From Cupriavidus taiwanensis (GTDB lineage Bacteria > Pseudomonadota > Gammaproteobacteria > Burkholderiales > Burkholderiaceae): DNA of 64,000 bases. The stretch is from positions 2,022,927-2,086,926 of the forward strand of contig NZ_LT976854.1 of NCBI RefSeq assembly GCF_900249755.1. The letters are read 5' to 3'. Positions 4,108-22,135 of the stretch are shown one piece after another. The first letter of the stretch is position 1. Each line of letters opens with the position of its first letter. Made by a program: the position numbers and the translations under genes. Under the pieces are notes generated by a model. That model made no database searches. It was not told the origin of the DNA and worked only from the letters and a program-made list of their open reading frames with translations.

Positions 4108-4653
4108 TCATGCCGGCGTGGCGTCTGCGCTGTCGACCGGTGCCGCCGGTGCCGCCGCCGTGCCGGCATCGGCTTCGCTGCGCACGCGCTTGAGTTCGTC
4201 GGCGTTGTTGACGATGCGCTCGAGCAGCACGTCGAGCTCGTCGTTGCCGTCGAGCTTGCCGAGCAGGTCGCGCAGCTGCTGGCGCGCTTCGAGCAGCTTG
4301 GCCAGGCGCGGCACCTGCGCCACCAGGCTTTCGGGATGGAAGTCGCCGAACTTGCTGAAATGCAGCTCGACCTTGAGACTGGCGTCGCCCTTCATGGTGT
4401 CGGGCACCGACAGCTCCAGCCGCGGCGCGATCTTGCCCATGATCTCGTCGAAGTTGTCGCGATCGATCTCGATAAAGCGGCGCTCCTTGAGCTTGGGCGG
4501 CGGCACCGCCGGCTGCCCCGACAGGTCGGCCAGCAGGCCGACCACCATCGGCAGCTCGCGCTTCTCGACGGCATCGCCGACCTCTACGTCATACGAGATC
4601 TGGACCCGCGGCGGGCGATTGCGCCCCACCCACTTCTGCAGACTATTGGACAT
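4108..4653 (-). CDS. tssB: Type VI secretion contractile sheath small subunit TssB
   Basis: TssB (VipA/ImpB) interlocks with TssC to build the sheath. The 181-residue product starts MSNSLQKWVGRNRPPRVQISYDV, with the classic RPPRVQISYDVE motif, followed by LPMVVGLLADLSG (about 34-46) and ERRFIEIDRDNFDEIM (about 57-72). The frame stays open about 100 codons further upstream, but the ATG at 4653 has a GGAGAG ribosome site and the conserved N-terminus starts there. It is the first gene of the visible operon, so the promoter should lie in the long gap to the right. Confidence 0.94.
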   Translation of the reverse strand: MSNSLQKWVGRNRPPRVQISYDVEVGDAVEKRELPMVVGLLADLSGQPAVPPPKLKERRFIEIDRDNFDEIMGKIAPRLELSVPDTMKGDASLKVELHFSKFGDFHPESLVAQVPRLAKLLEARQQLRDLLGKLDGNDELDVLLERIVNNADELKRVRSEADAGTAAAPAAPVDSADATPA

Positions 4654-5054
4654 GGAACTCTCCGGAAGGACTCGAATGGGTCCGGTCAAAGCATCGGTTG
4701 CGCACGGTGCCCCGTGCCGCAGGCAAAGCCAGTCCCCCGGCCCGGAAAACCCGGTCCGTTGCAGAGGCGCAAGCGCTGCGCCGCGGCGCCGCCACGACGG
4801 CCCCGCGGGGCACGCACCCTCGCTGGCAAACCCACTGGTGTGTTGCCCGTTCCTGCCTGGCGCGGCGCGCCGGCAGCTGGCCGCTGCGCAATAGCGGCAT
4901 GCACGGCATGCCGCGGCAGGACGAAGGCACCTTGTCTTCGCGCGCCGTTCCATCGTTGACCCATGCTGTGTTTCTCATTGCGGCACGCAAATTCAAGCGG
5001 AATTTAAGGCGACGCGCCGGGCCGGCACAATCCCTGAGAATTGGTATTTTGCGA

Positions 5055-7642: not shown

Positions 7643-8446
7643 CTACCCTTCCCGCGCCACCCGCTCCCGGATCGCCGCGGCAAGCTTCATCAGCGGCGCC
7701 GCCAGGGCGGCCTCGACCGCCCCGGCATCCAGCGGCGTGGACATGCTCACGTTCAGGACGTGGACGGCGTATCCGTCAAACCGCATCGGTGTCGCCATGG
7801 CCACCACCTGGGGCTGCCATGACGCGACGCAGTAGCCCGTGGCGTGGACCGAAGCCACCGCGGCATCGATCTCACGCCGCAGCTCACTCCAGCCGCGTCC
7901 GCGGTTCTTGTCCGCCAGCGTCCGCATCGTCACGCTGAACACCTCCGGTGGCAGCGTTGCAAGGTGCGCGCGGCCGAGCGAGGTCAGCGCCATCGGGATG
8001 CGCTGTCCGCTCACCACCGTGCGCAGCGACTGGCGCCGGTTATAGCGGAACGACTCGAGGTAGACCATCTCGTCGGCCTCGGCCACCGCCAGCCCGACAT
8101 TGATCCGGTGCCGCATGGCCACCTCGACCATCAACGGCGCCGCCGCCTTGAGGACCTGCTCGCTGTCGCGCATGGCGTGCGCCATGCAGAGCACCGGCAC
8201 GCCCAGGCGGTAGGTACGGGATTTCGGCATGTACTCGAGCATGCCGGTCTCGACCAGCGATTGGGTCAGGCGGCTGACCGTGGAGCGCGACAAGCCGGTA
8301 CGCTCGGCGATCTCGCTGTTGCCGAGCACGGACGAGCCGGCGCGGAAGGCGCGCAGCACGGCAACGCCGCGTTCGAGCGAGCGGTTCGGCGTGGCCTTGC
8401 CCTTGCCTGGTTTGATCCGTTCGGAGTTGACGATGCTGTTTGCCAT
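7643..8446 (-). CDS. IclR-family transcriptional regulator
   Basis: This is a 267-residue IclR-type regulator. The winged helix-turn-helix (about 22-80) reads RSLERGVAVLRAF then NSEIAERTGLSRSTVSRLTQSL. The effector domain follows, with the typical segment DEMVYLESFRYNRRQSLRTVVSGQRIPMALTSLGRA. I start it at the ATG at 8446 because the open extension to 8521 is rich in unlikely residues. It is last in a minus-strand series after an MmgE/PrpD gene (102 bp gap), so it probably controls the catabolic genes upstream of it. The palindromes at 14027 and 15300 are candidate binding sites (inference). Confidence 0.9.
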   Translation of the reverse strand: MANSIVNSERIKPGKGKATPNRSLERGVAVLRAFRAGSSVLGNSEIAERTGLSRSTVSRLTQSLVETGMLEYMPKSRTYRLGVPVLCMAHAMRDSEQVLKAAAPLMVEVAMRHRINVGLAVAEADEMVYLESFRYNRRQSLRTVVSGQRIPMALTSLGRAHLATLPPEVFSVTMRTLADKNRGRGWSELRREIDAAVASVHATGYCVASWQPQVVAMATPMRFDGYAVHVLNVSMSTPLDAGAVEAALAAPLMKLAAAIRERVAREG

Positions 8447-8548
8447 GACGCGGAATCGCTGCCTGCCCTCATACGATCGATCGGCGGCATCCGTCGTGCC
8501 GCGCTGAAGACAACGTACCATACCCCGGCAGCTTTTCCGCGCCGCGGC

Positions 8549-9883
8549 TCAGTCGAACCACGCAACCACCGGCTCGGTCTCAAGGCCCCAGATCTTCCGC
8601 ACCAGCCGGCGCGCGCCATCAACGCCGATCACCGGCGACGCCAGTTCCATCAGCTTGCCGTCCAGGTCCGCATCTGTTAGCGGGTCCTCCGGATCGCCCT
8701 TGCGATTCGGCTGCAGGTAGTCTGCCGTGGCACCGCCCGTGGTTTCGATTTCGATCCTTGCGGCGCGCTTGCCAGGAAACCAGCCGTCGATCTCGGGGTC
8801 GACCTCGACCGTCATGCCGTCCATCAGCCGGCGCGTCTCGCTGTGCCACAGCCGTTCCGGTGTGTACGCCGACAGGCGCACGCTGCCATGCACCAGCGCG
8901 GCGGCGACGACGAACTTGAGGCTGAACTTGGCTTCGTTCTCGCTCTTTGGATCCAGATAGCAGGCGATATCGAGCGCCGGTCCATAGGTGGCGACGCGGA
9001 CGCGGCGGATCTGCGCGGCCTCGACGCCCAGCTTCGCTTTCAGCGCCAGCGCCCCGTCGATCGCGGCAAAGGTGTGGCCGCAGCCAATGTGGTTCTTGAA
9101 GGTCAGCCGGCAGATGTGGAAGTCCTGCCCGAGCGTCGAAGCCAGCGTGCTCCAGTCCGGCCCGTCCGACATCGCGCGGCCCATGCCCGTCTCGCCATCA
9201 AGCACATCGAGCGATCCGGTGATGCCGGCGATGGCGGCGCGGGCGGCCAGCAATCCACCCTCCGCGGCACGGCCCGCGTGCAGCGGCTTGGACATCGAAT
9301 CCATGCGGAACGCCTGCTGCAGTCCGGCGGCGAACGTCGCCGCCGTCGCCAGCGCGTGGGCAAGCTGTGCTTCGCTCGCGCCGTGGATGAAAGCCGCGGC
9401 GGCGGCCGCGCCAAAGGTGCCGACCGTGGCGGTGCTGTGCCAGTAGCGATAGTGCGCCCGGCCCAGCACCACGCCGATGCGCGTCGACACCTCATAGCCG
9501 ACCACGATGCCCTTGAGCAGCGTCTCGCCGCTGGCGCCCACGTCCTGTGCGGCCGCGATGGCGGCGGCGATGGTGGCGGCACCGGGGTGGTACATCGCAT
9601 CACGGAAGCTGTCGTCGATCTCGGCAGCGTGGGCGGCGGCGCCATTGAGCAGCGCCGCGGCGCGCGCGGTGGCCCGTTGCCCCATCGGCAGCGTGGCGTT
9701 GCCGCGGCCAAGCTCTTCGGCCAGCACGCGCTGCAGGCGCTGGACCGCGTCGGTGCCGATGCCCGGATACAGCGCCGCATGCCAGTCGACCAGCGCGCGC
9801 TTCGCATGATGCAGCACCTCGGCCGGCAGCGGCCCGGCCTTGACGGTGCTGAAGAGCGGCCCGAAGGCCTCGGTTGCGTGCAA
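8549..9883 (-). CDS. MmgE/PrpD family protein (first copy)
   Basis: MmgE/PrpD proteins include 2-methylcitrate dehydratase, cis-aconitate decarboxylase and iminodisuccinate epimerase, all acting on multi-carboxylate substrates. This 444-residue protein has family segments HHAKRALVDWHAALYPG (about 25-41), NGAAAHAAEIDD with the conserved acidic pair, and the Lys/His-bearing MDSMSKPLHAGRAAEGG. Near the C-terminus it has YLQPNRKGDPEDPL. It closely resembles the second copy at 15472-16797; long blocks around these motifs are nearly identical. No prpB or prpC lies nearby, so a methylcitrate-cycle role is unlikely and the substrate is unknown. It follows the synthetase gene on the same strand by 83 bp, a gap that holds a hexanucleotide repeat. 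Confidence 0.88.
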   Translation of the reverse strand: MHATEAFGPLFSTVKAGPLPAEVLHHAKRALVDWHAALYPGIGTDAVQRLQRVLAEELGRGNATLPMGQRATARAAALLNGAAAHAAEIDDSFRDAMYHPGAATIAAAIAAAQDVGASGETLLKGIVVGYEVSTRIGVVLGRAHYRYWHSTATVGTFGAAAAAAFIHGASEAQLAHALATAATFAAGLQQAFRMDSMSKPLHAGRAAEGGLLAARAAIAGITGSLDVLDGETGMGRAMSDGPDWSTLASTLGQDFHICRLTFKNHIGCGHTFAAIDGALALKAKLGVEAAQIRRVRVATYGPALDIACYLDPKSENEAKFSLKFVVAAALVHGSVRLSAYTPERLWHSETRRLMDGMTVEVDPEIDGWFPGKRAARIEIETTGGATADYLQPNRKGDPEDPLTDADLDGKLMELASPVIGVDGARRLVRKIWGLETEPVVAWFD

Positions 9884-9966: not shown

Positions 9967-12069
9967 TCAAGGCTTGCCGTTGCCGGCCAGCACCGCCACG
10001 CCATCGGCGGCCACCACGCCCTGCCCTGCGGGCAGCACGAACACCGGATTGATCTCCGCCTCGACCAGCCGGTCGCCAAGCGTGGCGACCATGCGCGAGA
10101 ACGCGACGATGGTATCGGCCAGCGCGTCCACGTCGGCTTTCGGGCGGCCCCGGTAGCCCTGCAGCAAGGGCGCCGTCTTCAGGCGCCCGATCATCGCCAG
10201 CGCGGCCTCGCGCGTCAGCCCGCGTGCGCCGGGCAGCAGCCGCAGCGTGGTGTCGCCGAACAGCTCCGCCGCCACCCCGCCCATGCCAAGCAGGATCGCG
10301 GTGCCGAGCGCATCGCGGTGCATGCCGAGGATGACTTCGACGCCGCCCTTGACCATTTCCTGCACCAGGAAGCGCCTGGGCGCGATCCCCGTGGCCGACT
10401 GCACATCGCTGGCCATCGTTGCCAGCCGGCCTGCCACGTCCGCGGTCGGGACATTGACGGCCACGCCGCCGACGTCGCTCTTGTGGGTGATCTCGGCCGA
10501 CAGGATCTTCAGCACGACGTTGCCGCTGAACGATCGCGCCGCCGCAGTCGCCTCGGCGCCATCGGCAACCACGACTTCCTTTGCGACCGGTACACCGAAG
10601 CCGGCGAACAGGCGCTTGGCCGCGGCTTCGTCGAGCGAGCCGGTGCCATAGGCCGAGAGATCGGGCAACGGCAGCGTGGGGGTGCCCGCTTCGTCAACCG
10701 CGCGGAGCCTGCCCGCATGCAGCATCGCGTCGATCGCCACGGTGCATGCCTCCGGCGCGGAAAACGCCGGCACGCCACGACGATTGAGCAACGATGCGAC
10801 TTCCGGCGCATGCGGGCTCACGTATGCAATCACCGGCTTGTCGCTGTCGGGCAGGCAGTCGCGAATGGCATTGGCCATCAGGTCTGGCATGGCCAGGCTG
10901 GACGAGCCCACGATTACCGCGACCGCGTCATAGCTCGGGCTGTCGAGCAGGATGCGGATCGCGGCGCGCAACAGGTCGGGCTGCAAGCCGGCGAGGGTCA
11001 CATCGATCGGATTGCGGTCAAGCGCCGCGTGGTCTCCTTGCTGCAGCGCGCGCAGCTTCGCCGCAGTGGCCTCGTCCGGCGCCGGCGTCTCGAAGCCGGC
11101 CACGCCCAGGCTGTCGGAGACCAGCGTGCCGGCGCCGCCGGTCGAGGTCAGGATCGCGACACGGTTGCCGGCCAGCTTGCGTCCGGTGGCCAAGGCGGCG
11201 GGCATGTCGAGCAGATCGGAGAAGGTTTGCGCGCGCATCACGCCGACCTGTTCGAACAGTGCGTCATACATGCGGTCCGCGCCGGCCAGCGCGCCGGTAT
11301 GCGACACCGCGGCGCGCGCGCCGCTCTCGGAGCGGCCGATCTTGAACGCCACCACCGGCTTGCCGGCGCGCGCCGCCTTCAGCGCGGCACGGCGGAACGT
11401 TTCCGGGTTGCGCACGCTCTCGACATACAGCGCGATCACGCGGGTGGCCTCGTCATCGGCCAGGTAGTCGATAAAGTCGGCCAGGTCCAGGTCGACTTCA
11501 TTGCTGGTGGACACCAGCTTGGACAGGCCGATGCCGCGCGCCGCGGCACGCGACAGCAAGGCGCCGAGGATGCCGCCGCTTTGCGACACCACGCCGATGC
11601 TGCCGGCCGGGAATTGGTCCATTTCCAGCGCACCGCTGGCCGATAGCGGGATATTGTCAGTCAGGTTGACCAGGCCGATGGTGTTGGGCCCCAGCAGGCG
11701 CATGCTGCCGGCCGCCTCGATCAGTTCGGCCTGGCGCCGCGCGCCCTCGGCGCCGGTCTCGGTATAGCCGCTCGCCAGCACGATGGCCGCACCCGCGCCG
11801 CGCGCCGCCAGCTCGCGCACCGCCAGGTGCGCGCGTTCGGCGCCCAGCAGCACGATGCCGACGTCCGGCACTTCGGGCAGCGAGGCGATGTCGGGATAGC
11901 AGCGCAGGCCGTCGATCGCCTGAACCTTGGGATTGACCGGGTAGATCGCCCCGCTGAAGCCATGCTTGCGCAGGTAGGAAACCGGGCGGCCGGCGGTCTT
12001 GGCGGGATCGGCGGATGCGCCGATCACGGCAACGCTGCGCGGCGCGACGAGTCGTTGGATCGCATTCAT
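9967..12069 (-). CDS. ADP-forming acetate/acyl-CoA synthetase family protein (first copy)
   Basis: These fused enzymes interconvert an acyl-CoA plus ADP and phosphate with the free acid, CoA and ATP. The 700-residue protein has an N-terminal CoA-binding domain (APRSVAVIGASADPAKTAGRPV, about 9-30) and succinyl-CoA-ligase-like domains (SIGVVSQSGGILGALLSRA, from about 157). The presumed phospho-histidine loop is SHTGALAG with H257. A C-terminal ATP-grasp domain (about 480-690) contains EITHKSDVGGVAVNV and ends EAEINPVFVLP. It starts 4 bp after the hydratase gene, implying tight coupling. Its likely role is CoA activation of the acid taken up by the linked Bug receptor. The exact acid is unknown. 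Confidence 0.88.
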   Translation of the reverse strand: MNAIQRLVAPRSVAVIGASADPAKTAGRPVSYLRKHGFSGAIYPVNPKVQAIDGLRCYPDIASLPEVPDVGIVLLGAERAHLAVRELAARGAGAAIVLASGYTETGAEGARRQAELIEAAGSMRLLGPNTIGLVNLTDNIPLSASGALEMDQFPAGSIGVVSQSGGILGALLSRAAARGIGLSKLVSTSNEVDLDLADFIDYLADDEATRVIALYVESVRNPETFRRAALKAARAGKPVVAFKIGRSESGARAAVSHTGALAGADRMYDALFEQVGVMRAQTFSDLLDMPAALATGRKLAGNRVAILTSTGGAGTLVSDSLGVAGFETPAPDEATAAKLRALQQGDHAALDRNPIDVTLAGLQPDLLRAAIRILLDSPSYDAVAVIVGSSSLAMPDLMANAIRDCLPDSDKPVIAYVSPHAPEVASLLNRRGVPAFSAPEACTVAIDAMLHAGRLRAVDEAGTPTLPLPDLSAYGTGSLDEAAAKRLFAGFGVPVAKEVVVADGAEATAAARSFSGNVVLKILSAEITHKSDVGGVAVNVPTADVAGRLATMASDVQSATGIAPRRFLVQEMVKGGVEVILGMHRDALGTAILLGMGGVAAELFGDTTLRLLPGARGLTREAALAMIGRLKTAPLLQGYRGRPKADVDALADTIVAFSRMVATLGDRLVEAEINPVFVLPAGQGVVAADGVAVLAGNGKP

Positions 12070-12073
12070 GGTG

Positions 12074-12868
12074 TCAGGCCCGGGCCGCGGTCTTGTTCAG
12101 GAATGCCAGCACGGAGTCGCGATGCTCGCTGCTGGTGTAGCAGATGCCCTGCGCCTGGCTGCCCTGGGCGAAGACCTGGTCGGCGGGCAGTTCGAAGGAC
12201 TGGTTCATGATGCTCTTGCCCAGGGCGATCGCAGTGGCAGAGCCCTGGCTCAGTTCTGCCGCCCACGCCAGCGCATCGTCGATCAGCGCTTCAGGCTGGC
12301 TCAGGCGATCGGCGATGCCGAGCGCCTTCGCTTCCTGCGCCTCGACCTTGCGGCCCGTGAAGACCAGCTCCTTGGCGGTCGACAGCCCCACCCGGCGCGG
12401 CAGGAAATACATGCCGCCACCGTCCGGGATCAGCCCGCGATGGATATAGGACCACGAGAACGACGCCGCTTCGGAAGCCAGCACAAAGTCACAGCACAGC
12501 GCGGTATCGGCACCCAGCCCGGCCGCGGCGCCGTTGACCGCGGCGATGGTGGGCTTGGGCATGGTGTGCAGCAGCTTGACGGTGTGATGGACGCGCTGCT
12601 GGCGGCTCCAGCCATTGAAGCCCACCTCGCCCTGCGGCGCTTCCATGCGGCGCTGCATGCCGGCCACGTCGCCGCCGGCGCAGAAACCCTTGCCGTTGCC
12701 GGTGAGCACCAGCGCGCGGATGGCCTGGTCTGCCGCCACGCGTTCCAGCGCGTGAATGAATTCCGAGCGCATGTCGTCGCTCATGGCATTGCGCTTGTCG
12801 GGGCGGTTGAAGGCGAGCAGCGCGATGCCAGCCTCGATCTTCAGTTCAATCAGGGAATAGTTGTCCAT
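12074..12868 (-). CDS. Enoyl-CoA hydratase/isomerase family protein
   Basis: A crotonase-fold enzyme of 264 residues, expected to hydrate or isomerise an enoyl-CoA. The oxyanion-hole segments are GKGFCAGGDVAGM and NGAAAGLGADTALCCDF. At the usual catalytic loop it reads RGLIPDGGGMYFLPR, with Asp where many hydratases have Gly-Ala, as in isomerase-like members. I start it at the ATG at 12868, where homology begins; the open frame extends further upstream into the neighbouring receptor gene. It lies 49 bp after the Bug receptor gene and 4 bp before the synthetase. Confidence 0.9.
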   Translation of the reverse strand: MDNYSLIELKIEAGIALLAFNRPDKRNAMSDDMRSEFIHALERVAADQAIRALVLTGNGKGFCAGGDVAGMQRRMEAPQGEVGFNGWSRQQRVHHTVKLLHTMPKPTIAAVNGAAAGLGADTALCCDFVLASEAASFSWSYIHRGLIPDGGGMYFLPRRVGLSTAKELVFTGRKVEAQEAKALGIADRLSQPEALIDDALAWAAELSQGSATAIALGKSIMNQSFELPADQVFAQGSQAQGICYTSSEHRDSVLAFLNKTAARA

Positions 12869-12917
12869 GGTCCTGTCCGGTTCCGTGTAGCTGATCTGTT
12901 TTTTGCGAGTGCCGCGC

Positions 12918-13913
12918 TCAGTCGGCCGTGATGTTGGCGTCTTTGATGACCTTGCTCCAGCGCTGTCTCTCGGCCTTGACGTAGCGGCCGAACTCGTCCG
13001 GGGTGCCACCGCCGATGGCCAGCCCTTCCTGCTCGGCGCGCTTGCGGAACGCTTCGGTGTGCACCGCCTTTTTCGCCGCCGCGTTCAGCCGCGTGATCAC
13101 TGCTGGCGGCGTGCCGGCCGGCACGAACAGGCCATACCAGCTATCCGCCGCGTAGCCGGGCACACCGCTTTCCGCGATCGTCGGCACCTTGCTAAGCGCC
13201 GGCGCCTGCGAGCGCTGCGCGGTCGTGACCGCCACCGCGCGCAGCTTGCCGCTCTCCAGGTGCGGCGCGACCGCCGCCGCGGTGGCGAACATCACATCGA
13301 CCTGCCCGCCGAGCAGGTCCGTGATCGCCGGGCCGGCGCCGCGATAAGGAATGTGGTTCATCTCGACCTTCGCCATCTTCTTGAACAACTCGCCGGCCAG
13401 GTGCGCCGAAGTGCCGGGCCCTTGCGAGGCATAGTTGAGCTTGCCCGGCTTCGCCGTGGCGGCTGCGATCAGGTCCTGCACGGTCTTGATGGCACTGTCC
13501 GGCTTCACCACCAGCACGTTGGGCGAGCGCCCCACCAGCATCACCGGCGCGAACGCCTTGTCCGTATCGAACGGCAGCTTCCTGTGCAGGCTGGGATTGA
13601 CCGCATGCGCCATCGTCGCCATCACCAGCGTGTAGCCGTCGGGCGCGCTCTTGGCCACCGCATCGGTGCCGATGATGGTGCCGCCGCCGGGCTTGTTCTC
13701 GACGATGACGGGCTGGCCCAGGTCCTCGCCCATGGTGATGCCCATCGCACGCGCCACCAGGTCGGTGCCGCCGCCGGCGGCGAACGGGACCACCAGGCGG
13801 ATGGGCTTGTCGGGGAAGGCTGCGAGCGCGGGCACGGGGGCTGCCGCGGCCATCAGGGTTGGGATGGCTGCGGTGGCAAGCCAGCGGAAGAGCCGGGTAC
13901 GGTACGGATACAT
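12918..13913 (-). CDS. Bug/TctC-type periplasmic solute receptor (first copy)
   Basis: This is a tripartite tricarboxylate transporter-type extracytoplasmic receptor of 331 residues. It has a Sec signal peptide (about 1-32: Arg-rich start, LMAAAAPVPALA, cleavage near AAFPDKP). The family signature PIRLVVPFAAGGGTDLVAR follows, with GQPVIVENKPGGGTIIGTD and the SAPDGYTLVMAT block. Such receptors bind carboxylates or aromatic acids; most beta-proteobacterial copies are orphan, without membrane partners, as here. It is the first gene of the minus operon with hydratase, synthetase and MmgE/PrpD genes. A candidate operator lies 114-130 bp upstream. Confidence 0.92.
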   Translation of the reverse strand: MYPYRTRLFRWLATAAIPTLMAAAAPVPALAAFPDKPIRLVVPFAAGGGTDLVARAMGITMGEDLGQPVIVENKPGGGTIIGTDAVAKSAPDGYTLVMATMAHAVNPSLHRKLPFDTDKAFAPVMLVGRSPNVLVVKPDSAIKTVQDLIAAATAKPGKLNYASQGPGTSAHLAGELFKKMAKVEMNHIPYRGAGPAITDLLGGQVDVMFATAAAVAPHLESGKLRAVAVTTAQRSQAPALSKVPTIAESGVPGYAADSWYGLFVPAGTPPAVITRLNAAAKKAVHTEAFRKRAEQEGLAIGGGTPDEFGRYVKAERQRWSKVIKDANITAD

Positions 13914-14026
13914 GCTTTGTCTCCTGGAACAAGTTCGAGACGCCGCGGGCGTTGGACTGCGTGCGCCGGGCGTGTTTCTTTGTTACAGGGAGCTTAGGCC
14001 TTGGCGGGCCGTTGCACAGCCCCACA

Positions 14027-14043
14027 ATTCCACTGAATGGAAT
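14027..14043. promoter_or_regulatory. Interrupted palindrome ATTCC-N7-GGAAT (candidate IclR-type operator 1)
   Basis: The site reads ATTCCACTGAATGGAAT; symmetry extends to 7 bp arms (AATTCCA/TGGAATT, 14026-14044). It lies upstream of the minus-strand Bug receptor operon. The same spacing and arms occur at 15300-15316 upstream of the plus-strand module. The assignment to the IclR regulator at 7643 is inference from linkage and from the general TTCC/GGAA character of many IclR sites. Confidence 0.5.
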
Positions 14044-14065
14044 TCTTGGGCTGCAGCTCGAGCGG

Positions 14066-14106
14066 AAAGAAAAAGGCCCTGCAGAGCGCACAAACTCTGC
14101 AGGGCC
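14066..14106 (-). terminator. Rho-independent terminator of the second Bug receptor gene
   Basis: A perfect 12-bp stem (GGCCCTGCAGAG at 14075-14086, CTCTGCAGGGCC at 14095-14106) closes an 8-nt loop. Read on the minus strand it is followed by TTTTTCTTT (14074 down to 14066). It begins 63 bp after the stop of the Bug receptor gene at 14169, so it separates that gene from the operon downstream. Confidence 0.9.
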
Positions 14107-14168
14107 AACCGTATCCCCGAAACCGGTATCGGCCGACCGGACACAATACGGCCGGCAGCCCCCTTTCT

Positions 14169-15149
14169 CTACAGCGCGATCTTCACGGTCTTGAACACCG
14201 CCCCCCAGCGCTCGACTTCCTGCCTCAGGTACTGCCTGAACTCCTCCCGCGAGCCGCCGACCACGATCGCGCCTTGCGACTCGAGCTTCTCGCGCATGTC
14301 CGGCGACGCCAGCGCCTTGTTCACTTCCGCATTGAGGCGGTCGAGAATCGGCTTGGGTGTGCCGGCCGGGGCCAGCAGCCCGTTCCAGGAGTCGGCTTCG
14401 AAGCCGGGCAGGCCCGCTTCATCCATGGTAGGAAGCTGCGGCATCTGCGGCAGGCGCTTCTTGGACGCGACCGCCAGCGCACGCGGGTTGCCGGACTTCA
14501 GCGCCGGCAGTGCCGACATCGAGGTCATGAAGACCATGTCGACGGTTCCGGCCATCAGGTCGGTCAGGGCCCCGGAGGCACCCTTGTAGGGGATATGGAG
14601 CATGTCGATACCCGCCTTCTGCTTGAGCAATTCGCCGGCCATGTGCTGCGACCCGCCCGCGCCGCTGGAGCCAAACGTCAGGCTGCCCGGACGCTGCTTT
14701 GCCAGGGCAATCAGTGACTTCAGGTCGCGCACCGGCAATCTGGTCGATACCGCCAGCACCGCCGGCGCGTTCATGACATTGGCGACCGGCTCGAAGCTCT
14801 TCTGAACATCGAACTTCAGTCCCTTGTACAGGTACTTGGTCATGGTGATCGGGGCCGCTGCCAGCAGCAGCGTATAGCCGTCCGGCGCGGCCGACGCGAC
14901 ATACTCCGAGGCAATGTTCGAGCCGGCGCCGACCTTGTTCTCCACGACCACGGGCTGGCCCATCGACGCCTGCAACTTGCTGGCCAGGAGCCGCGCCGTG
15001 AGGTCGGTCGGACCGCCGGCCTGGTAGCCGACGATGATGCGGATCGGCTCGGACGGGTAGGCACCGGCGGCCAAGGCTGCGGTCGGGGCCAGGGCCAGCG
15101 CCAGCAGGATGCCAGCCACTGCGCCTCTGGACGTGTGAAGGGGTTGCAT
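14169..15149 (-). CDS. Bug/TctC-type periplasmic solute receptor (second copy)
   Basis: This 326-residue receptor starts at the ATG at 15149, with a GGAG ribosome site. It has a clear signal peptide (MQPLHTSRGAVAGILLALALAPTAALA), then the family blocks PIRIIVGYQAGGPTDLTARLL, GQPVVVENKVGAGSNIASE and AAPDGYTLLLAA. The C-terminal FEADSWNGLLAPAGTPKPI pattern is typical. It is transcribed alone, divergent from the plus-strand MmgE/PrpD gene, and ends at a strong terminator. It probably supplies the substrate for one or both neighbouring modules; the ligand is unknown. Confidence 0.92.
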   Translation of the reverse strand: MQPLHTSRGAVAGILLALALAPTAALAAGAYPSEPIRIIVGYQAGGPTDLTARLLASKLQASMGQPVVVENKVGAGSNIASEYVASAAPDGYTLLLAAAPITMTKYLYKGLKFDVQKSFEPVANVMNAPAVLAVSTRLPVRDLKSLIALAKQRPGSLTFGSSGAGGSQHMAGELLKQKAGIDMLHIPYKGASGALTDLMAGTVDMVFMTSMSALPALKSGNPRALAVASKKRLPQMPQLPTMDEAGLPGFEADSWNGLLAPAGTPKPILDRLNAEVNKALASPDMREKLESQGAIVVGGSREEFRQYLRQEVERWGAVFKTVKIAL

Positions 15150-15471
15150 ATTGTTGTCTCCATTGTGATCGGGAATGCGGACGCCTTTGATGCGGACCGG
15201 GCGCTTTGCCGCTCGCTTCGTGCCGCATTGCGGCAGGCCCGTGCGGGCAGTCGGTTCCAGCGCAATAGTGGGCGATTGCGGCGCGCAGGAGAAATTCCGA
15301 TTCCGTTGTGTGGAATGATAAAAACTCAACCCTGGAGAGAACACCATGCAAACGCCATGGCCCTTCCAAAAAGTCATGGCTCGTTCCGCAATTGGAAGTT
15401 CTCGTCCGGCCCCCCGTCGGCGACGATCAGGCTCCAGCCACGTTGCGCCCGTGCGCGCGCAGACCAACACC
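15150..15471. other. 322-bp divergent control region between Bug receptor and MmgE/PrpD genes
   Basis: No gene is supported here. The plus-strand frame is open from 15346 but the region lacks MmgE/PrpD similarity before 15472. The stretch holds the 15300-15316 palindrome, a nearby direct repeat ATTCCG-ATTCCG overlapping its left arm, and an A/T-rich patch (15317-15328). It should contain promoters for both neighbours. Confidence 0.6.
15300..15316. promoter_or_regulatory. Interrupted palindrome ATTCC-N7-GGAAT (candidate IclR-type operator 2)
   Basis: The site reads ATTCCGTTGTGTGGAAT. Its arms and 7-nt spacing match the site at 14027-14043. It sits about 150 bp from both the minus-strand Bug receptor start and the plus-strand MmgE/PrpD start, the right place for a shared operator. 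The binding protein is inferred, not shown. Confidence 0.5.
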
Positions 15472-16797
15472 ATGACGATCATCGAGACCTTTGCGGCCTA
15501 CGCGGCCAATCCCGGCGCGGGGGTCGACGCCCCGGAAGTCATCCATCACGCCAAGCGTGCGGTGGTCGACTGGTACGCCGCGCTGATTCCTGGCGCGGTC
15601 GAGGCGCCGGCGACGCTGCTGGAACGGGCGCTCGCCGACGACCTCGACCGGGGCCGCGCGCGCCTGGCGCTGGGACGCAGTGCCAGCGCCAGGACGGCCG
15701 CGCTGATCAACGGCACCGCCGCGCACACGGTCGAGGTCGACGATATCTACAAGCACGCCATCTATCATCCCGGCGCGCCGACCATTGCCGCCGCACTCGC
15801 CGCGGGGCAGCAGCGCCAGGTCAGCGGCATGGACTTCTTGCGCGCCGTAATCGTCGGCTACGAGGTGTCGACCCGCATCGGCGCCGCCATGGGCCGCACC
15901 CATTACCGCTACTGGCACAACACCGGCACGGTCGGGACCTTTGGCGCGGCGGCGGCCGCGGCCGCCATCCTGAAGCTGGACGCCAGCCGGAGCGCGCATG
16001 CGCTGGCAACTTGCGCGACCTGCGCCGCGGGGCTGCAGCAGGCGTTCCGCATGGACTCGATGTCCAAGCCGCTGCATGCCGGCCGCGCCGCCGAAGGCGG
16101 GCTGCTGGCGGCACTGGCTGCCGACGCTGGGGTCACCGGCTCGCTGGACGTGATCGATGGCGACGCCGGCCTCGGGCGAGCCATGAGCGACGGCCCGGAC
16201 TGGGCGGCCGCTGCCGCGACGCTGGGCCGCGAGTACCACATCACGCAGATGACCTTCAAGAACCACGCTTGCTGCGGCCACACCTTTGCCGCCATCGATG
16301 GTGCGCTGGCGCTGCAGCGCGAGCACCGATTCAGCGTGGACGAGATCGAGAGCGTGCGCGTGGCCACCTACGGACCGGCGCTGGAGGTCGCCGGCAACCG
16401 CAATCCGCGCACCGCCGCCGAAGCCCGCTTCAGCCTGCCCTATGCCATGGCAAGTGCGCTGATTCATGGCAGCGTGCGGCTCGCCGCGTTTACCCCGCAA
16501 CGTCTTGCCGACCCCGCCATCCGAGCGTTGATGAGCGGTATCGAACTGCAGGTCGACCCCCGGCTCGATGCCGCGTTCCCCGGCCAGCGCGCGGCGCGTG
16601 TCACGGTGCGGACCCGCGATGGCCGGGAGCTGGAATACCTGCAGCCCAACCGTAAGGGCGATCCGGAGGAGCCGCTCAGCGACGCCGAGCTCAACGACAA
16701 GTTCCTCGAGCTCGCCGCGCCGGTACTGGGTGCGTCGGCGGCAACGGACCTGCTGCAGCGCCTGTGGCAGCTCGACTCCGCGATCTCGTTGCCGTAA
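15472..16797 (+). CDS. MmgE/PrpD family protein (second copy)
   Basis: This 441-residue protein is a close paralogue of the one at 8549-9883. They share VIVGYEVSTRIG, YRYWHNTGTVGTFGAAAAAA, AFRMDSMSKPLHAGRAAEGG, FKNHACCGHTFAAIDGAL and YLQPNRKGDPEEPL. I start it at the ATG at 15472, where alignment with the paralogue begins; an upstream ATG at 15346 would add 42 residues of low-quality sequence. It heads the plus-strand module and is followed by a LysR gene 77 bp on. Having two copies in facing modules suggests either two related acids or two stereoisomers (inference). Confidence 0.87.
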   Translation: MTIIETFAAYAANPGAGVDAPEVIHHAKRAVVDWYAALIPGAVEAPATLLERALADDLDRGRARLALGRSASARTAALINGTAAHTVEVDDIYKHAIYHPGAPTIAAALAAGQQRQVSGMDFLRAVIVGYEVSTRIGAAMGRTHYRYWHNTGTVGTFGAAAAAAAILKLDASRSAHALATCATCAAGLQQAFRMDSMSKPLHAGRAAEGGLLAALAADAGVTGSLDVIDGDAGLGRAMSDGPDWAAAAATLGREYHITQMTFKNHACCGHTFAAIDGALALQREHRFSVDEIESVRVATYGPALEVAGNRNPRTAAEARFSLPYAMASALIHGSVRLAAFTPQRLADPAIRALMSGIELQVDPRLDAAFPGQRAARVTVRTRDGRELEYLQPNRKGDPEEPLSDAELNDKFLELAAPVLGASAATDLLQRLWQLDSAISLP

Positions 16798-16874: not shown

Positions 16875-17792
16875 ATGGCGCGGCGTATCCCACCCATGAA
16901 CCCGTTGCGGGTTTTCGAAGTCGTTGCCCGCACCCAGAACCTCACGCTGGCTGCGCAGGAACTGCATGTCTCGCAATCGGCGGTAAGCCGGCAGATTGCG
17001 GTCCTTGAAGGCTATCTTGGCGTGGAACTGTTCCGCCGCGAACGGCACGGCGTCACGCTGACGCGTGCCGGCCAGGCTTACGCCGAAGAGGTCGTGCCTG
17101 CGTTCGATGCCATCGCCAATGCCACCGCGCGACTGTTGCGCAGCACGTCGCAGGGCGCATTGCGGGTCCGCACCTACACCACCTTCGCCGCCAAGTGGCT
17201 GATCCCGCGGCTGCCAGATTTCCAGAAGCAGTATCCCAGCATCGAGGTCCGCATCGACAACGCCATCCCGGATGTGGATTTCGACCGCGACCCCGCCGAT
17301 GTCGCGATTCAGTACGGCGACGGACGCTGGCCACGGGTCAGTGCCGAGCTGCTGTTCCATGACAAGATCGAGCCCGTCTGCACGCCGGCTTACCTGCGCG
17401 CGCACCGCGCGCCGCGGGGCAGGCTGGAGCCGCTGCTGCGCCACCGCCTGCTGGTGTCGCACTACCGGCGCACCGACTGGGACGACTGGCTTGCCTTTGC
17501 CGGCCTGGCCGACATCGCGCACGGCACCGAGCGCATGAGCTTCGGCAGTTCGGTGCTGACGTGGCAGGCCGCGCTGGACGGACTGGGCATTGCAATCGGG
17601 CAGACCGCGATGCTGAAGGCCGAGTTCGACGATGGCCGGCTGGTGCGACCGTTCGCGCTGCCGCTGACGCGCGACAAGGGCCATTACCTCGTGCGTCCCG
17701 CCGTGCAGCGCGAATCGCGCAAGGTGGCGGCGTTCCGCGAATGGTTGCTGGAGACGGTGGCGCGCGAGAGAGCCGAGGCCACCGAACCCTGA
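16875..17792 (+). CDS. LysR-family regulator (GcvA-like subgroup)
   Basis: A 305-residue LysR-type regulator. The N-terminal helix-turn-helix (about 8-66) reads PLRVFEVVARTQNLTLAAQELHVSQSAVSRQI followed by LGVELFRRERHGVTLT. The effector domain shows the GcvA-like ALRVRTYTTFAAKWLIPRLPDFQKQYPSIEVRI. It lies between the second MmgE/PrpD gene and an acyl-CoA dehydrogenase on the same strand, so it probably controls this module and perhaps itself. LysR regulators usually act from a divergent site; here there is no divergent partner, so the target must be inferred. Confidence 0.92.
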   Translation: MARRIPPMNPLRVFEVVARTQNLTLAAQELHVSQSAVSRQIAVLEGYLGVELFRRERHGVTLTRAGQAYAEEVVPAFDAIANATARLLRSTSQGALRVRTYTTFAAKWLIPRLPDFQKQYPSIEVRIDNAIPDVDFDRDPADVAIQYGDGRWPRVSAELLFHDKIEPVCTPAYLRAHRAPRGRLEPLLRHRLLVSHYRRTDWDDWLAFAGLADIAHGTERMSFGSSVLTWQAALDGLGIAIGQTAMLKAEFDDGRLVRPFALPLTRDKGHYLVRPAVQRESRKVAAFREWLLETVARERAEATEP

Positions 17793-17931
17793 GCCACAGG
17801 TCGTCCAACCGGGCCGCGCGGCGCCGCTGGCATGAGTTTTTGTTCTGGCTGCGGGCCAAACGCGAAGTTCACAACGTTCCCGATATCACCGATCCTGACC
17901 CTGTCAACGATCCGAATCCAAGAGAACGAAT

Positions 17932-19089
17932 ATGAACTTTGAACTCAGCGAAGAACATCAGGCATTCGCCGAATCGGTGCGCCGCTTCGCGCAGGACCGG
18001 CTCGCCGCCGGGGCGCTGGAGCGCGCCCATTCCGCGCAGTACCCGTGGGAAGTGGCGCGCATGCTGGCCGAGCAAGGCCTGCTCGGCATCGCCTTTGCCG
18101 AAGCAGACGGCGGCCAGGGCGGCACGCTGATGCACGCGGTGATCGCGATCCAGGAGATCGCACTGGTCTGCCCGAAGAGCGCCGACATCGTGCAGGCGGG
18201 CAATTTCGGCCCCATCCGCACCTTTGTCGAATACGCCAGCGCCGAACAGAAGGCACGCTTCCTGCCGGACCTGCTGGCCGGCAGGAAGCTGATTGCGCTG
18301 GGCATGACGGAGCCGGATGCCGGCTCCGCCGTGACCGAGTTGAAGACTTCCGCGCGCCGCGACGGCGAGCACTATGTGATCAACGGCAGCAAGATTTTCT
18401 CGACCCACAGCCCGGAGGCCGAGCTGTTCCTGGTCTATGTGCGCTTCGGCCCGGGCGTGGGCGGCATCGGATCAGTGCTGGTGGAGCGCGGCACGCCGGG
18501 CTTCGAGGTCGGCGAGCCGTCGAAGTTCATGAGCGGCGAGGAATGGTGCCAGCTTTACTTCGAGGACTGCCGCATCCCCGCCGGCAACCTGCTGCTCGGC
18601 GAGGGCGGCTTCAAGCGCCAGATTTCCGGCTTCAACGTCGAGCGCCTGGGCAATTCGTCGCGCTCGCTGGCGCTCGGCCGCCATTGCTTCAACGTGGCGC
18701 GCGAGCACGCACGCATCCGCAAGCAGTTCGGGCGCGACCTGTGCGAATTCCAGGGCGTACAGTGGAAATTCGCGGAGATGGCGCTCAAGCTGGAATCGGC
18801 GCAGTTGCTGCTGTATCGCGCCGCGATGGAAGGCGAGCACGGCTTGCCCTCGGCCCACAGCACCGCCATGGCCAAATTGGCCTGCAACCAGGCTGGCTGG
18901 GACGTTGCCAACGAGGCGCTGCAGATCATGGGCGGCATGGGCTACAGCCAGGAATCGATCGTGGAATACTGCCTGCGCCGGATCCGCGGCTGGATGATTG
19001 CCGGGGGCTCGATCGAGATGCTGAAGAACCGCATCGCGGAAGGCGTCTTCGAGCGCACGTTCCCGCAGCGCGGGCCCAAGGCAGGCTGA
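17932..19089 (+). CDS. Acyl-CoA dehydrogenase
   Basis: A flavoprotein of 385 residues expected to introduce an alpha-beta double bond into an acyl-CoA. It has the FAD-site blocks LIALGMTEPDAGSAVTELKTSA (about 120-141) and the C-terminal ALQIMGGMGYSQESIVEYCLRRIRGWMIAGGS. The MCAD catalytic Glu position near the C-terminus is replaced (MIAGGS). Glu237 in FNVERLG lies at the helix position that supplies the base in isovaleryl-CoA dehydrogenase, which suggests a branched acyl-CoA substrate (family inference). It is followed 68 bp on by the second ADP-forming synthetase. Confidence 0.9.
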   Translation: MNFELSEEHQAFAESVRRFAQDRLAAGALERAHSAQYPWEVARMLAEQGLLGIAFAEADGGQGGTLMHAVIAIQEIALVCPKSADIVQAGNFGPIRTFVEYASAEQKARFLPDLLAGRKLIALGMTEPDAGSAVTELKTSARRDGEHYVINGSKIFSTHSPEAELFLVYVRFGPGVGGIGSVLVERGTPGFEVGEPSKFMSGEEWCQLYFEDCRIPAGNLLLGEGGFKRQISGFNVERLGNSSRSLALGRHCFNVAREHARIRKQFGRDLCEFQGVQWKFAEMALKLESAQLLLYRAAMEGEHGLPSAHSTAMAKLACNQAGWDVANEALQIMGGMGYSQESIVEYCLRRIRGWMIAGGSIEMLKNRIAEGVFERTFPQRGPKAG

Positions 19090-19157: not shown

Positions 19158-21257
19158 ATGAACACCAGAAACACCGCTCCCTTCCACGTGGACCCCGCAC
19201 TGGCCCAGGCGCTGCTGGCCCCGCGCAGCGTGGCGCTGTTCGGCGCCTCGGACGACGCGGCCAAGACCGCCGGGCGGCCGCTGAAGTTCCTGCGTGCGGC
19301 GGGATACGCGGGCAACATCTACCCGATCAACCCCAACCGCAGCACGGTGCAGGGCGAAGCGGCGTATGCGAGCCTGGCCGCATTGCCCGAAGTCCCCGAG
19401 CATGTGTTTATCCTGACGCCGACCGACACGGTGCCGGATGCGGTGCGCGAATGCTCCCGGCTCGGCGTGAAGGTGGTCACCATTTTGGCGAGCGGCTTCT
19501 CGGAAGCCGGCGCCGAAGGCGCGGCGCGCGAAGCCGCGTTGCGCGCGCTGTGCGAGCACGGCGAGACTCGCGTGCTTGGCCCCAGCAGCCTTGGCGTGGT
19601 CAACCCGCGCGCTGGCCTGGTGCTGACCGCCAACGCGGCCTTCGCCGAGCCGGAACTGCCGCAGGGCCGCGTGTTCGTGGCCTCGCACAGCGGCAGCATG
19701 CTCGGCGCCCTGGTATCGCGCGGCAAGGCGCGCGGCGTCGGCTTTGCCGGGCTGGTGTCGGTGGGCAGCGAATCGGACCTGTGCGTGGGCGAGATCTGCA
19801 TGGCCACGCTGGACGATCCCGCCATCGACGGCTACCTGCTGTTCCTGGAGAGCCTGCGCCACGGCGACAATCTGCGCGCCTTCGCGCTGGAGGCGGCAAG
19901 GCGGGGCAAGCCTGTAATTGCCTACAAGCTCGGGCGTTCGGCCGCCGCGGCCGAGATGGCAGCCACCCATACCGGCGCGCTGGCCGGCGAGGACGATATC
20001 GCCGATGCCTTTCTCAAGGATCTCGGCATTGCCCGCGTCGGCGTGCTCGAAGCGCTTCTCGAGGCCTTCCCGCTCGCCAGGCGCATCCCGCTGCACGGCG
20101 CCGGTGCGCCGCTGCGCCGCGTGGGCGTGGTGACCACCACGGGCGGCGGCGCGGCGATGGTGGTGGACCAGCTCGGCATCCGCGACGTGGTGGTGGAGCC
20201 GGCCTCAGCGGCCACGCTGGAGAAGCTGGCGGCAGCGGGCATCGCCGTGTCGGCGGGCCGCGTGCTCGACCTGACCCTGGCCGGCACCAACTACAACGTG
20301 ATGAAGGGCGCGCTCGACATCATGTTCGAGGCGCCGGAATTCGATATCGTGCTGGCGGTGGTCGGTTCGTCCGCACGCTTCCAGCCGCAGCTTGCGGTCA
20401 AGCCCATCATCGACAGCGCGGACCGGACCAAGCCGCTGGCGGCGATGCTGGTGCCCGACGCGCCCGAAGCACTCGCCGCGCTGACCGCGGCAGAGGTGCC
20501 TTGCTTCCGCTCGCCCGAGGCCTGCGCGGACGCCATCGCCGCGCTGCTGGCGCGCAGGACACCCGGCGCGCAGCCGACAGTGCGGGGCGCGAGCGCTGCG
20601 CGCGCCGCTGCGCTGAGCGAAGCGCAGGCGTATGCAATCCTCGGCGAACTGGGCGTGCCGCACGCCCCCGCCGTGACCATGCCCCTCGCTGGCCCCGCAG
20701 ACAAACTACCCTTTGCCTTCCCGGTGGTGGCGAAGGTCTGCTCCGCGCAGATCCCGCACAAGACCGAGGTCGGCGGCGTGGTGCTGGGCATCCAGGACCA
20801 CGCCGGCCTGGACGCCGCGCTGGCCACGCTGCGGCAGAACCTGGCCGAGCGCGCGCCCGGCACGCCGTGCGACGAAGTGCTGGTGCAGCCCATGACCCGC
20901 GGGCTGGCTGAAGTCCTGGTGGGCTATCGCGTCGACCCCGAAGCCGGCCCCGTGATCATGCTTGCCGCCGGTGGCATCTGGGCCGAAGTCGCGCGTGACC
21001 GCAGCATCCGGCTCGCCCCGGTCAGCGTCGAGGTCGCACGCGAGATGATCGCCGAAGTGAAGGCGCTGCAAACCGTAGCGGGCCTGCGCGGCAGGCAGCG
21101 CGGCGACCTCGATGCGCTCGCGCAGGCCGTCAGCGCGCTGTCGCAGCTCGCATGCAAGCCGCAGTTGCGCATTGCCGAGGCGGAGGTAAATCCCATGATG
21201 GTCCTGCCCGAAGGCCAGGGTGTGCTCGCTGTCGATGCGCTGGTGCTCAGAGCATGA
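19158..21257 (+). CDS. ADP-forming acetate/acyl-CoA synthetase family protein (second copy)
   Basis: This 699-residue protein has the same architecture as the copy at 9967: CoA-binding domain (APRSVALFGASDDAAKTAGRPL, about 21-42), ligase domains with SHSGSMLGALVSRG, the histidine loop THTGALAGEDD with H271, and an ATP-grasp domain near the end (IPHKTEVGGVVLGIQ, EAEVNPMMVLPEGQG). An AAAGG-type ribosome site precedes it. Its stop overlaps the start of the next gene in an ATGA arrangement. It probably activates an acid to its CoA ester, or makes ATP from a CoA ester at the end of the pathway. Confidence 0.88.
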   Translation: MNTRNTAPFHVDPALAQALLAPRSVALFGASDDAAKTAGRPLKFLRAAGYAGNIYPINPNRSTVQGEAAYASLAALPEVPEHVFILTPTDTVPDAVRECSRLGVKVVTILASGFSEAGAEGAAREAALRALCEHGETRVLGPSSLGVVNPRAGLVLTANAAFAEPELPQGRVFVASHSGSMLGALVSRGKARGVGFAGLVSVGSESDLCVGEICMATLDDPAIDGYLLFLESLRHGDNLRAFALEAARRGKPVIAYKLGRSAAAAEMAATHTGALAGEDDIADAFLKDLGIARVGVLEALLEAFPLARRIPLHGAGAPLRRVGVVTTTGGGAAMVVDQLGIRDVVVEPASAATLEKLAAAGIAVSAGRVLDLTLAGTNYNVMKGALDIMFEAPEFDIVLAVVGSSARFQPQLAVKPIIDSADRTKPLAAMLVPDAPEALAALTAAEVPCFRSPEACADAIAALLARRTPGAQPTVRGASAARAAALSEAQAYAILGELGVPHAPAVTMPLAGPADKLPFAFPVVAKVCSAQIPHKTEVGGVVLGIQDHAGLDAALATLRQNLAERAPGTPCDEVLVQPMTRGLAEVLVGYRVDPEAGPVIMLAAGGIWAEVARDRSIRLAPVSVEVAREMIAEVKALQTVAGLRGRQRGDLDALAQAVSALSQLACKPQLRIAEAEVNPMMVLPEGQGVLAVDALVLRA

Positions 21258-22135
21258 CCACGCGCGCAGCCGATCTCCATGCCGCGGATGATGCAGGTTT
21301 ACTGGCCCGGCTCGAGCGCATGGGCGTTCGCCACGACGTGGCGCACCTCGGGCGCAACGTGGTATGGCGCCGCTTTGGCGAAGGTCCGCCGCTGGTGCTG
21401 CTTCATGGCGGCCACGGCAACTGGATGCACTGGGTGCGCAATATCGAGGCGCTGGCCGCGCGGCATACGCTGTGGCTGGCGGACATGCCGGGCTTCGGCG
21501 ACTCCGATGCGCTGGCCGGCGACGACCATGCCCCCGACCGGCTCGAGCGCCTGGTGCAGGCCCTGATTGCCACGCTCGACCACCTCGTCGGCGAAAACAG
21601 CGAGATTGCCATCGCCGGCTTCTCCTTCGGGGCGCTGGTCGCCGCGCACATTGCGGCGCGACGGCCCCGGGTCACGCGGCTTGCCCTGCTGGGCCCGGCG
21701 GGCCATGGCGGCGCGCGGCGCCAAGGCCAGCCCATGCAGGACTGGCGCATCGATGACGAGCACGAAATGCGGCGCCGGTTGCGCCACAACCTGCTGGCAC
21801 TGATGCTGCACGACGAGAAACTCGCCGACGGACTCGCCATGGCCGTCCATGAGCAGGCATGCAAGGCAACCCGTTTCCGCAGCCGCACGATCTCGCGCCA
21901 GGCAAGCCTCGGCAACTTGCTAGCGGCATACCGCCGGCCGACCTTGCTGATGTGGGGCGAGCATGACGTCACCGCCGTGCCGGTGGAGGCCGCCCAGCAG
22001 CTGGCCTCCAGCGCAAGCCACCGGGACTGGTGCGTAATCCCGGCGGCCGGGCATTGGGTGCAATTCGAGCGCTGGCAGGAAGTCAATCCGATGCTGCTGC
22101 GCTGGTTCTCCGACGCTTCTGCCAGCACGGCTTAG
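21254..22135 (+). CDS. Alpha/beta hydrolase
   Basis: The 293-residue product has the alpha/beta-hydrolase fold: oxyanion-loop LVLLHGGHGNWMHWVRN (about 46-62), the nucleophile elbow AGFSFGALVAA, an acid residue in LMWGEHDVTAVP, and the histidine in AAGHWVQFERWQEVNP. The ATG at 21254 overlaps the upstream stop (ATGA), so translation is coupled to the synthetase gene. An earlier ATG in the open frame lies inside that gene and is rejected. A likely role is hydrolysis of an ester, thioester or lactone in the same pathway; the substrate is not evident. Confidence 0.88.
   Translation: MTTRAADLHAADDAGLLARLERMGVRHDVAHLGRNVVWRRFGEGPPLVLLHGGHGNWMHWVRNIEALAARHTLWLADMPGFGDSDALAGDDHAPDRLERLVQALIATLDHLVGENSEIAIAGFSFGALVAAHIAARRPRVTRLALLGPAGHGGARRQGQPMQDWRIDDEHEMRRRLRHNLLALMLHDEKLADGLAMAVHEQACKATRFRSRTISRQASLGNLLAAYRRPTLLMWGEHDVTAVPVEAAQQLASSASHRDWCVIPAAGHWVQFERWQEVNPMLLRWFSDASASTA

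Follow-up and report, generated by a model that had tools for sequence, protein, structure and literature searches.

Two catabolic modules lie side by side in the window (the whole 64,000-nucleotide stretch of DNA analysed here), each apparently with its own regulator, and both carry the same 10-letter palindrome, ATTCC-N7-GGAAT. The question is whether one protein, the IclR-family regulator of the left module, reads both copies and joins the two modules into one regulon, as a first-pass annotation of this DNA had proposed. We consider it likely that there are instead two regulons, governed by IclR on the left and by a LysR-family protein on the right, and that the second palindrome is a look-alike.

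The palindromes themselves are as the annotation described them. Both are exact, reading ATTCC-ACTGAAT-GGAAT at 14027-14043 (site 1) and ATTCC-GTTGTGT-GGAAT at 15300-15316 (site 2). The annotation put each site 110-150 bp before a gene that starts an arm. Counted from the coordinates, site 1 is separated by 113 bases from the start of the receptor gene Bug1 (13913), and site 2 by 150 from that of the second receptor gene, Bug2 (15149), and by 155 from the start of PrpD2 that is conserved in relatives (15472). The 5,954,828-base Cupriavidus genome contains exact matches to ATTCC-N7-GGAAT at six places, sites 1 and 2 included, and none to the reversed control pattern; the remaining four copies were read as lying within coding stretches. 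When one mismatch was allowed, sites 1 and 2 were still the only matches in the window (2 vs. 0.77 expected), and at this loose setting 16 of 100 shuffled windows gave two or more. The spacing from site 1 to site 2 is 1,273 bp, for which the chance with two of six genome copies is ~0.006, calculated post hoc with the pair already known. A search of a plasmid collection with 13880-15500 gave no match. The two sites are not equivalent. Site 1 forms part of a longer palindrome, AATTCC-N7-GGAATT, and is its sole exact copy in the genome; the outer A/T pair is absent from site 2.

Site 1 stands before the left operon, which runs on the reverse strand in the order Bug1-ECH-ACD1-PrpD1-iclR when read leftwards. 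Its first gene, Bug1 (12918..13913, Pfam PF03401), encodes a tripartite tricarboxylate (TctC/Bug) receptor. It is followed by ECH, of the enoyl-CoA hydratase/isomerase family (12074..13009 as listed, PF00378), whose true start is probably further in because the listed ORF overlaps Bug1, then by ACD1, an NDP-forming acyl-CoA ligase-like protein (9967..12069; PF13607, PF13549, PF13380), and by PrpD1, of the MmgE/PrpD family (8549..9883; PF03972, PF19305). The last gene encodes the IclR-family regulator (7643..8521; PF09339, PF01614), the predicted binder of site 1. The best NCBIfam model for this protein is PcaR/PcaU/PobR (TIGR02431), but its 95.5 bits are far below the cut-off of 284.75 and it is therefore not a member of that group; a PDB sequence search returned 11 distant IclR-type sequences. 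A type VI secretion VipA-like gene (4108-4953, PF05591) is also present towards the left edge of the window.

Conservation of site 1 was assessed in loci found by searching the IclR query in 60 Cupriavidus genomes and 200 genomes of the family. Forty nine loci were collected: the 20 best IclR places (window excluded), nine picked by pattern (L076-L084, fetched for carrying the extended palindrome) and a final 20 chosen by IclR similarity, three of which are from other genera. A locus was assessable if it contained a Bug1 homologue of at least 60% identity, the 300 bases upstream of which were examined, and 40 of the 49 qualified, all nine pattern-picked loci among them. Site 1 was exact upstream of Bug1 in 30 of these 40, had one mismatch in 7 and two mismatches in 2, and was absent from 1. 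Without the pattern-picked loci, the corresponding figures are 21, 7, 2 and 1 of 31. The site is thus present with 0-2 mismatches in 39/40 assessable operons, or 30/31 without the pattern-picked loci. Amongst the first 20 loci, which were chosen by IclR similarity alone, 17 contained the exact site, one had a single mismatch and two had a symmetric variant. In this variant, which accounts for the two-mismatch cases (L051 and L052), the operator reads ATTTCC...GGAAAT; both arms bear the same change and the palindrome is therefore kept, as would be expected if a dimer binds. The commonest form among relatives is AATTCCA-N5-TGGAATT.

Nine loci (L041, L158, L164, L165, L168, L173, L174, L175 and L176) could not be assessed, being without a Bug1 homologue of at least 60% identity in the tested orientation. 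L041 nevertheless contains an exact site, and matches to a model of the IclR site were found in L168 (32.3), L173 (21.8), L175 (18.7) and L176 (17.2); L158, L164, L165 and L174 gave no model match of 15 or more. The one assessable locus counted as without the site upstream of Bug1 (L166) has a model match of 28.9 elsewhere in the locus. Named Cupriavidus records matching these loci include C. necator A5-1, C. respiraculi, C. pauculus, C. gilardii and C. cauae. Site 1 is conserved together with the IclR gene across orthologous operons, the two being linked in relatives, and this conservation rules out a chance origin. A role as a LysR site was also set aside, because the 20 first-fetched IclR neighbourhoods, in which site 1 is conserved, hold no LysR homologue. 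In all probability, site 1 is a conserved operator for IclR. Three loci show other arrangements. L081 (genome G044) has the left operon and an exact site 1, but its fetched neighbourhood gave no match to IclR; one of 56% lies elsewhere on the same contig. L175 and L176, which come from two other genera, have iclR oriented divergently from a Bug-ECH-ACD-PrpD operon, with a weaker palindrome upstream of the IclR match, as derived from the coordinates.

The placing of site 1 is also consistent with an operator. The 19-bp palindrome AATTCC-N7-GGAATT at 14026..14044 scores 35.0 in the IclR-site model, and next to it is a predicted core promoter on the reverse strand (13991..14019), comprising a -35-like CTGTGC (14019-14014), a 17-nt spacer and a -10-like TAAGCT (13996-13991). 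Among 40 operator-aligned rows (39 loci and the window), the -10-like pattern [CG][CG][CT]TA[ATC]NCT occurs at a constant offset from the operator in 35; this pattern and the TGGCTN8AAN3GAAGTTC pattern described below were both devised after the alignments had been inspected. Few columns beyond the operator and promoter attain 60-80% agreement. A sigma-70 consensus scan of 13850-15520 found no promoter. If transcription starts ~7 bases past the -10 element, as we infer, the operator would be centred near -51, a position that favours activation over repression. An IclR dimer or tetramer would then bind AATTCCA-N5-TGGAATT just upstream of the -35 region and, with an acid or CoA ester as effector, would most simply activate the left operon, iclR included. 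A predicted intrinsic terminator on the reverse strand (14075..14106), with a 13-bp stem, 9 of its pairs G-C, and a T-rich tail, lies past the end of Bug2, where it would stop the Bug2 transcript short of site 1; two terminator-like sites were found, against 1.6 expected from shuffles. Its position suggests a separate transcription unit for Bug2, parted from the left operon.

The right arm reads rightwards as PrpD2, LysR, ACAD, ACD2 and a hydrolase, with Bug2 divergent. Bug2, the second TctC/Bug receptor, lies on the reverse strand (14169..15149, PF03401), and the other genes lie on the forward strand. PrpD2, of the MmgE/PrpD family, is placed at 15472..16797; the Pfam assignment was made on a longer listed ORF, opened by an upstream ATG at 15346, and the start at 15472 was set by alignment. 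As the start at 15346 is unconserved, 15346-15471 is better read as a set of conserved non-coding elements than as coding sequence. There follow a LysR-family protein (16875..17792; PF00126, PF03466), an acyl-CoA dehydrogenase (ACAD, 17932..19089; PF00441, PF02770, PF02771), a second NDP-forming acyl-CoA ligase-like protein (ACD2, 19158..21257; PF13549, PF13607) and an alpha/beta hydrolase (ABH, 21152..22135 as listed, PF00561), the true start of which is probably downstream because the listed ORF overlaps ACD2. The LysR protein, the predicted regulator of the right arm, belongs to the GcvA subfamily, matching NF008352 with 305.5 bits (cut-off 288). The known targets of GcvA (glycine cleavage) are unrelated to the right arm.

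The 60 Cupriavidus genomes were searched for orthologues of PrpD2 and of the LysR protein of the right arm, and right arms containing Bug2, PrpD2, ACAD and ACD2 were found in seven others (G033, G020, G036, G011, G009, G031 and G013), none of which adjoins an IclR operon within the fetched stretches. Alignment of the Bug2/PrpD2 intergenic regions of the eight right arms, window included, revealed several conserved blocks. The palindrome at site 2 is not one of them. All five arm pairs are present in this genome and in G020, four in G033 and G036, three in G031 and G013, and two in G011 and G009; it is thus complete in two of the eight. Six genomes have both arms and an IclR orthologue, and in these the palindrome is complete in two and broken in four, one of the latter being G031, whose IclR orthologue has only 58% identity. 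G036 and G013 have no IclR match of at least 50% identity, and G036 still holds its four pairs. The pairing at site 2 does not track the presence of IclR. The IclR-site model gives site 2 a score of 19.0, within the training range of 17.5-35.6, and its equivalents 17.1 (G020), 9.2 (G033) and 8.1 (G036); the best matches in the other four right-arm loci fall outside the site-2 position. Of the control of both modules that had been ascribed to IclR, the part that concerns site 1 and the left operon is strongly supported by conservation, by the fixed offset of the -10-like element and by an IclR-type sequence, and the part that concerns site 2 is not supported. Lack of conservation in related clusters, which the annotation had named as grounds for refutation, is seen for site 2 and not for site 1.

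What is conserved around site 2 is of another kind. A predicted LysR box, ATGATAAAAACTCAA (15315..15329), starts on the final two bases of site 2 and contains a T-N11-A (15316/15328), the T and A of which are invariant in all eight right arms. In the window it takes the form ATGA-N7-TCAA, an imperfect inverted repeat with 3/4 arm pairs in each of the eight. It is found in the seven right arms with a LysR gene and also in G013, which has kept the right-arm blocks in a cluster without a LysR gene and has a 55% LysR homologue elsewhere. Sites of LysR-type regulators are typically described as T-N11-A (PMC3382589), usually centred near -65 (PMC12016517). The centre of the box here would lie at ~-64 from a predicted Bug2 start, in a stretch where the scan found no consensus promoter. 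This start is placed from a conserved block on the reverse strand, AATAGTGGGCGA (15264..15275), with 0.85 identity among five divergent right arms compared with 0.53 for the whole region, within which CACTAT (15270-15265) would be the -10 region of the Bug2 promoter.

A second conserved element on the forward strand, AAAAAGTCATGGCT-N8-AATTGGAAGTTC (15368..15401), resembles a region before ACAD (17832..17870, forward strand), with equal spacing. The latter begins with a box, ATGAGTTTTTGTTCT (17832-17846, forward strand), that has two mismatches to ATGA-N7-TCAT. Their common signature, TGGCTN8AAN3GAAGTTC, has just two matches in this genome, at 15377-15401 before PrpD2 and at 17846-17870 before ACAD; G020 and G033 likewise have two apiece, at equivalent places. 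Across the 60 genomes it matches 17 times. Nine of these matches fall in right arms or LysR-ACAD loci and 8 elsewhere, the 8 comprising two recurring sequence types. The signature is found solely before ACAD in G031, G013 and G035, and no exact copy was found in the right-arm genomes G036, G011 and G009. Three LysR-bearing genomes whose locus lacks PrpD2 also have related blocks before ACAD. By its score in the subfamily model and the invariant T-N11-A in its divergent promoter region, the right-arm regulator resembles GcvA-type proteins. It would read the Bug2/PrpD2 region through the box at 15315-15329 and would also use the element at 15368-15401. Site 2 would then belong to the right arm, its ATTCC/GGAAT pairing having arisen in a few close relatives atop letters that were already conserved. 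What is conserved at site 2 is the T-N11-A box and the blocks near it, one of them common to the ACAD promoter of this arm.

A nearby second target would in itself not be strange for this IclR regulator, because second sites of its type lie beside the operon in relatives. Site 2 also matches the IclR-site model better than almost all of the other DNA examined. The related loci L037-L084 (610 kb, with much of the training set of the model among them) give 34 matches of 19.0 or more, and every one comes from a locus retrieved on account of the IclR operon or its site; the 799 kb of loci retrieved through LysR homologues outside Cupriavidus contain two. In G053, G014, G027 and G030, a neighbouring gene for a receptor or a 2-hydroxyacid dehydrogenase has a second IclR-type site close to its start, and G035 has a similar second site with an ORF. 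By locus, second IclR-type palindromes beside the IclR operon in L082, L163, L169, L171 and L172 score 19.6-27.6; in four of these the adjacent gene start is that of a TctC receptor or D-2-hydroxyacid dehydrogenase, and in L171 that of an ORF, which hints that the substrate or effector may be a 2-hydroxyacid. The idea of a strong second IclR site elsewhere in this genome was set aside. The extended palindrome with up to two mismatches occurs at 86 places, of which site 1 and 20 others, among 50 listed, were scored. The best of those scored besides site 1 (23.9) lies just past the ATG of an ORF read as LutB-like. The 45 two-mismatch places among those listed are all on one contig (C1), and genuine weaker sites may have gone unnoticed in the remainder.

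Could IclR nonetheless bind both sites, with site 2 as a weaker operator and both arms and Bug2 as one regulon? That both palindromes are exact at two of only six places genome-wide, that the score of site 2 falls inside the training range and that relatives hold second sites beside the operon would all fit such an arrangement. Against it are the broken palindrome in most right arms and in four of the six genomes where both arms and IclR co-occur, the pairs kept by G036 without an IclR orthologue of at least 50%, the missing outer A/T pair, the LysR-type box overlapping site 2 and the separation of right arms from the IclR operon elsewhere. One joint regulon through IclR at site 2 is not supported by these comparisons, and we regard it as unlikely; the model score of site 2, the second sites of relatives and the case of G013 leave it a modest residual chance. 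An origin of site 2 as an IclR operator once the arms had become neighbours was rejected, because the copy in G020 is exact with the arms ~290 kb apart and that in G033 has one mismatch with the arms >2.6 Mb apart.

A third regulator, such as another IclR-family protein, might instead read site 2 beside LysR. The genome does have 23 matches to the IclR query, and among the five divergent right arms the arms of site 2 are 0.78 identical as opposed to 0.53 for the whole region. However, the best-conserved arm letters belong to runs that continue into the flanking blocks and several of the pairing letters vary, so that we consider a third regulator very unlikely. The notion that both palindromes are chance occurrences and neither is bound could appeal to the shuffled windows, but it is hardly credible given the retention of site 1 in all but one of the assessable operons and the -10-like element at a constant offset from it. 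Two regulons, with IclR at site 1, LysR at the right arm and site 2 a look-alike, is the reading that we carry forward.

The motif at site 1 is of an already described kind. A site reported for GenR, an IclR-family protein of Corynebacterium glutamicum, is ATTCC-N7(5)-GGAAT (PMC8222616), with arms and spacing identical to those of sites 1 and 2. GenR serves the gentisate/3-hydroxybenzoate pathway in a different phylum, and the Cupriavidus site differs in extending to AATTCCA-N5-TGGAATT. The same survey of IclR-family sites describes, within its group 1, a WTT-11-AAW subgroup with the consensus WTTYCRYW3RYGRAAW (PMC8222616). Site 1 fits its arms and spacing at WTT, YC, GR and AAW, and most copies of site 1 add the outer A/T pair.

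For neighbouring modules of this sort, identical short palindromes 1.3 kb apart should each be compared with their own homologues before being merged into one regulon. A weak IclR operator may still have evolved inside the LysR-controlled divergent promoter, overlapping the LysR box, in this species and C. necator A5-1. We think this improbable; if true, IclR and LysR would compete or cooperate at the right-arm promoter, and modules that are apart in other Cupriavidus would have become wired together, a regulatory link in formation. The two-regulon reading provides a testable operator, AATTCCA-N5-TGGAATT near -51, and a predicted regulon for the IclR protein of many Cupriavidus genomes, and supplies a candidate LysR box for the second, rarer module.
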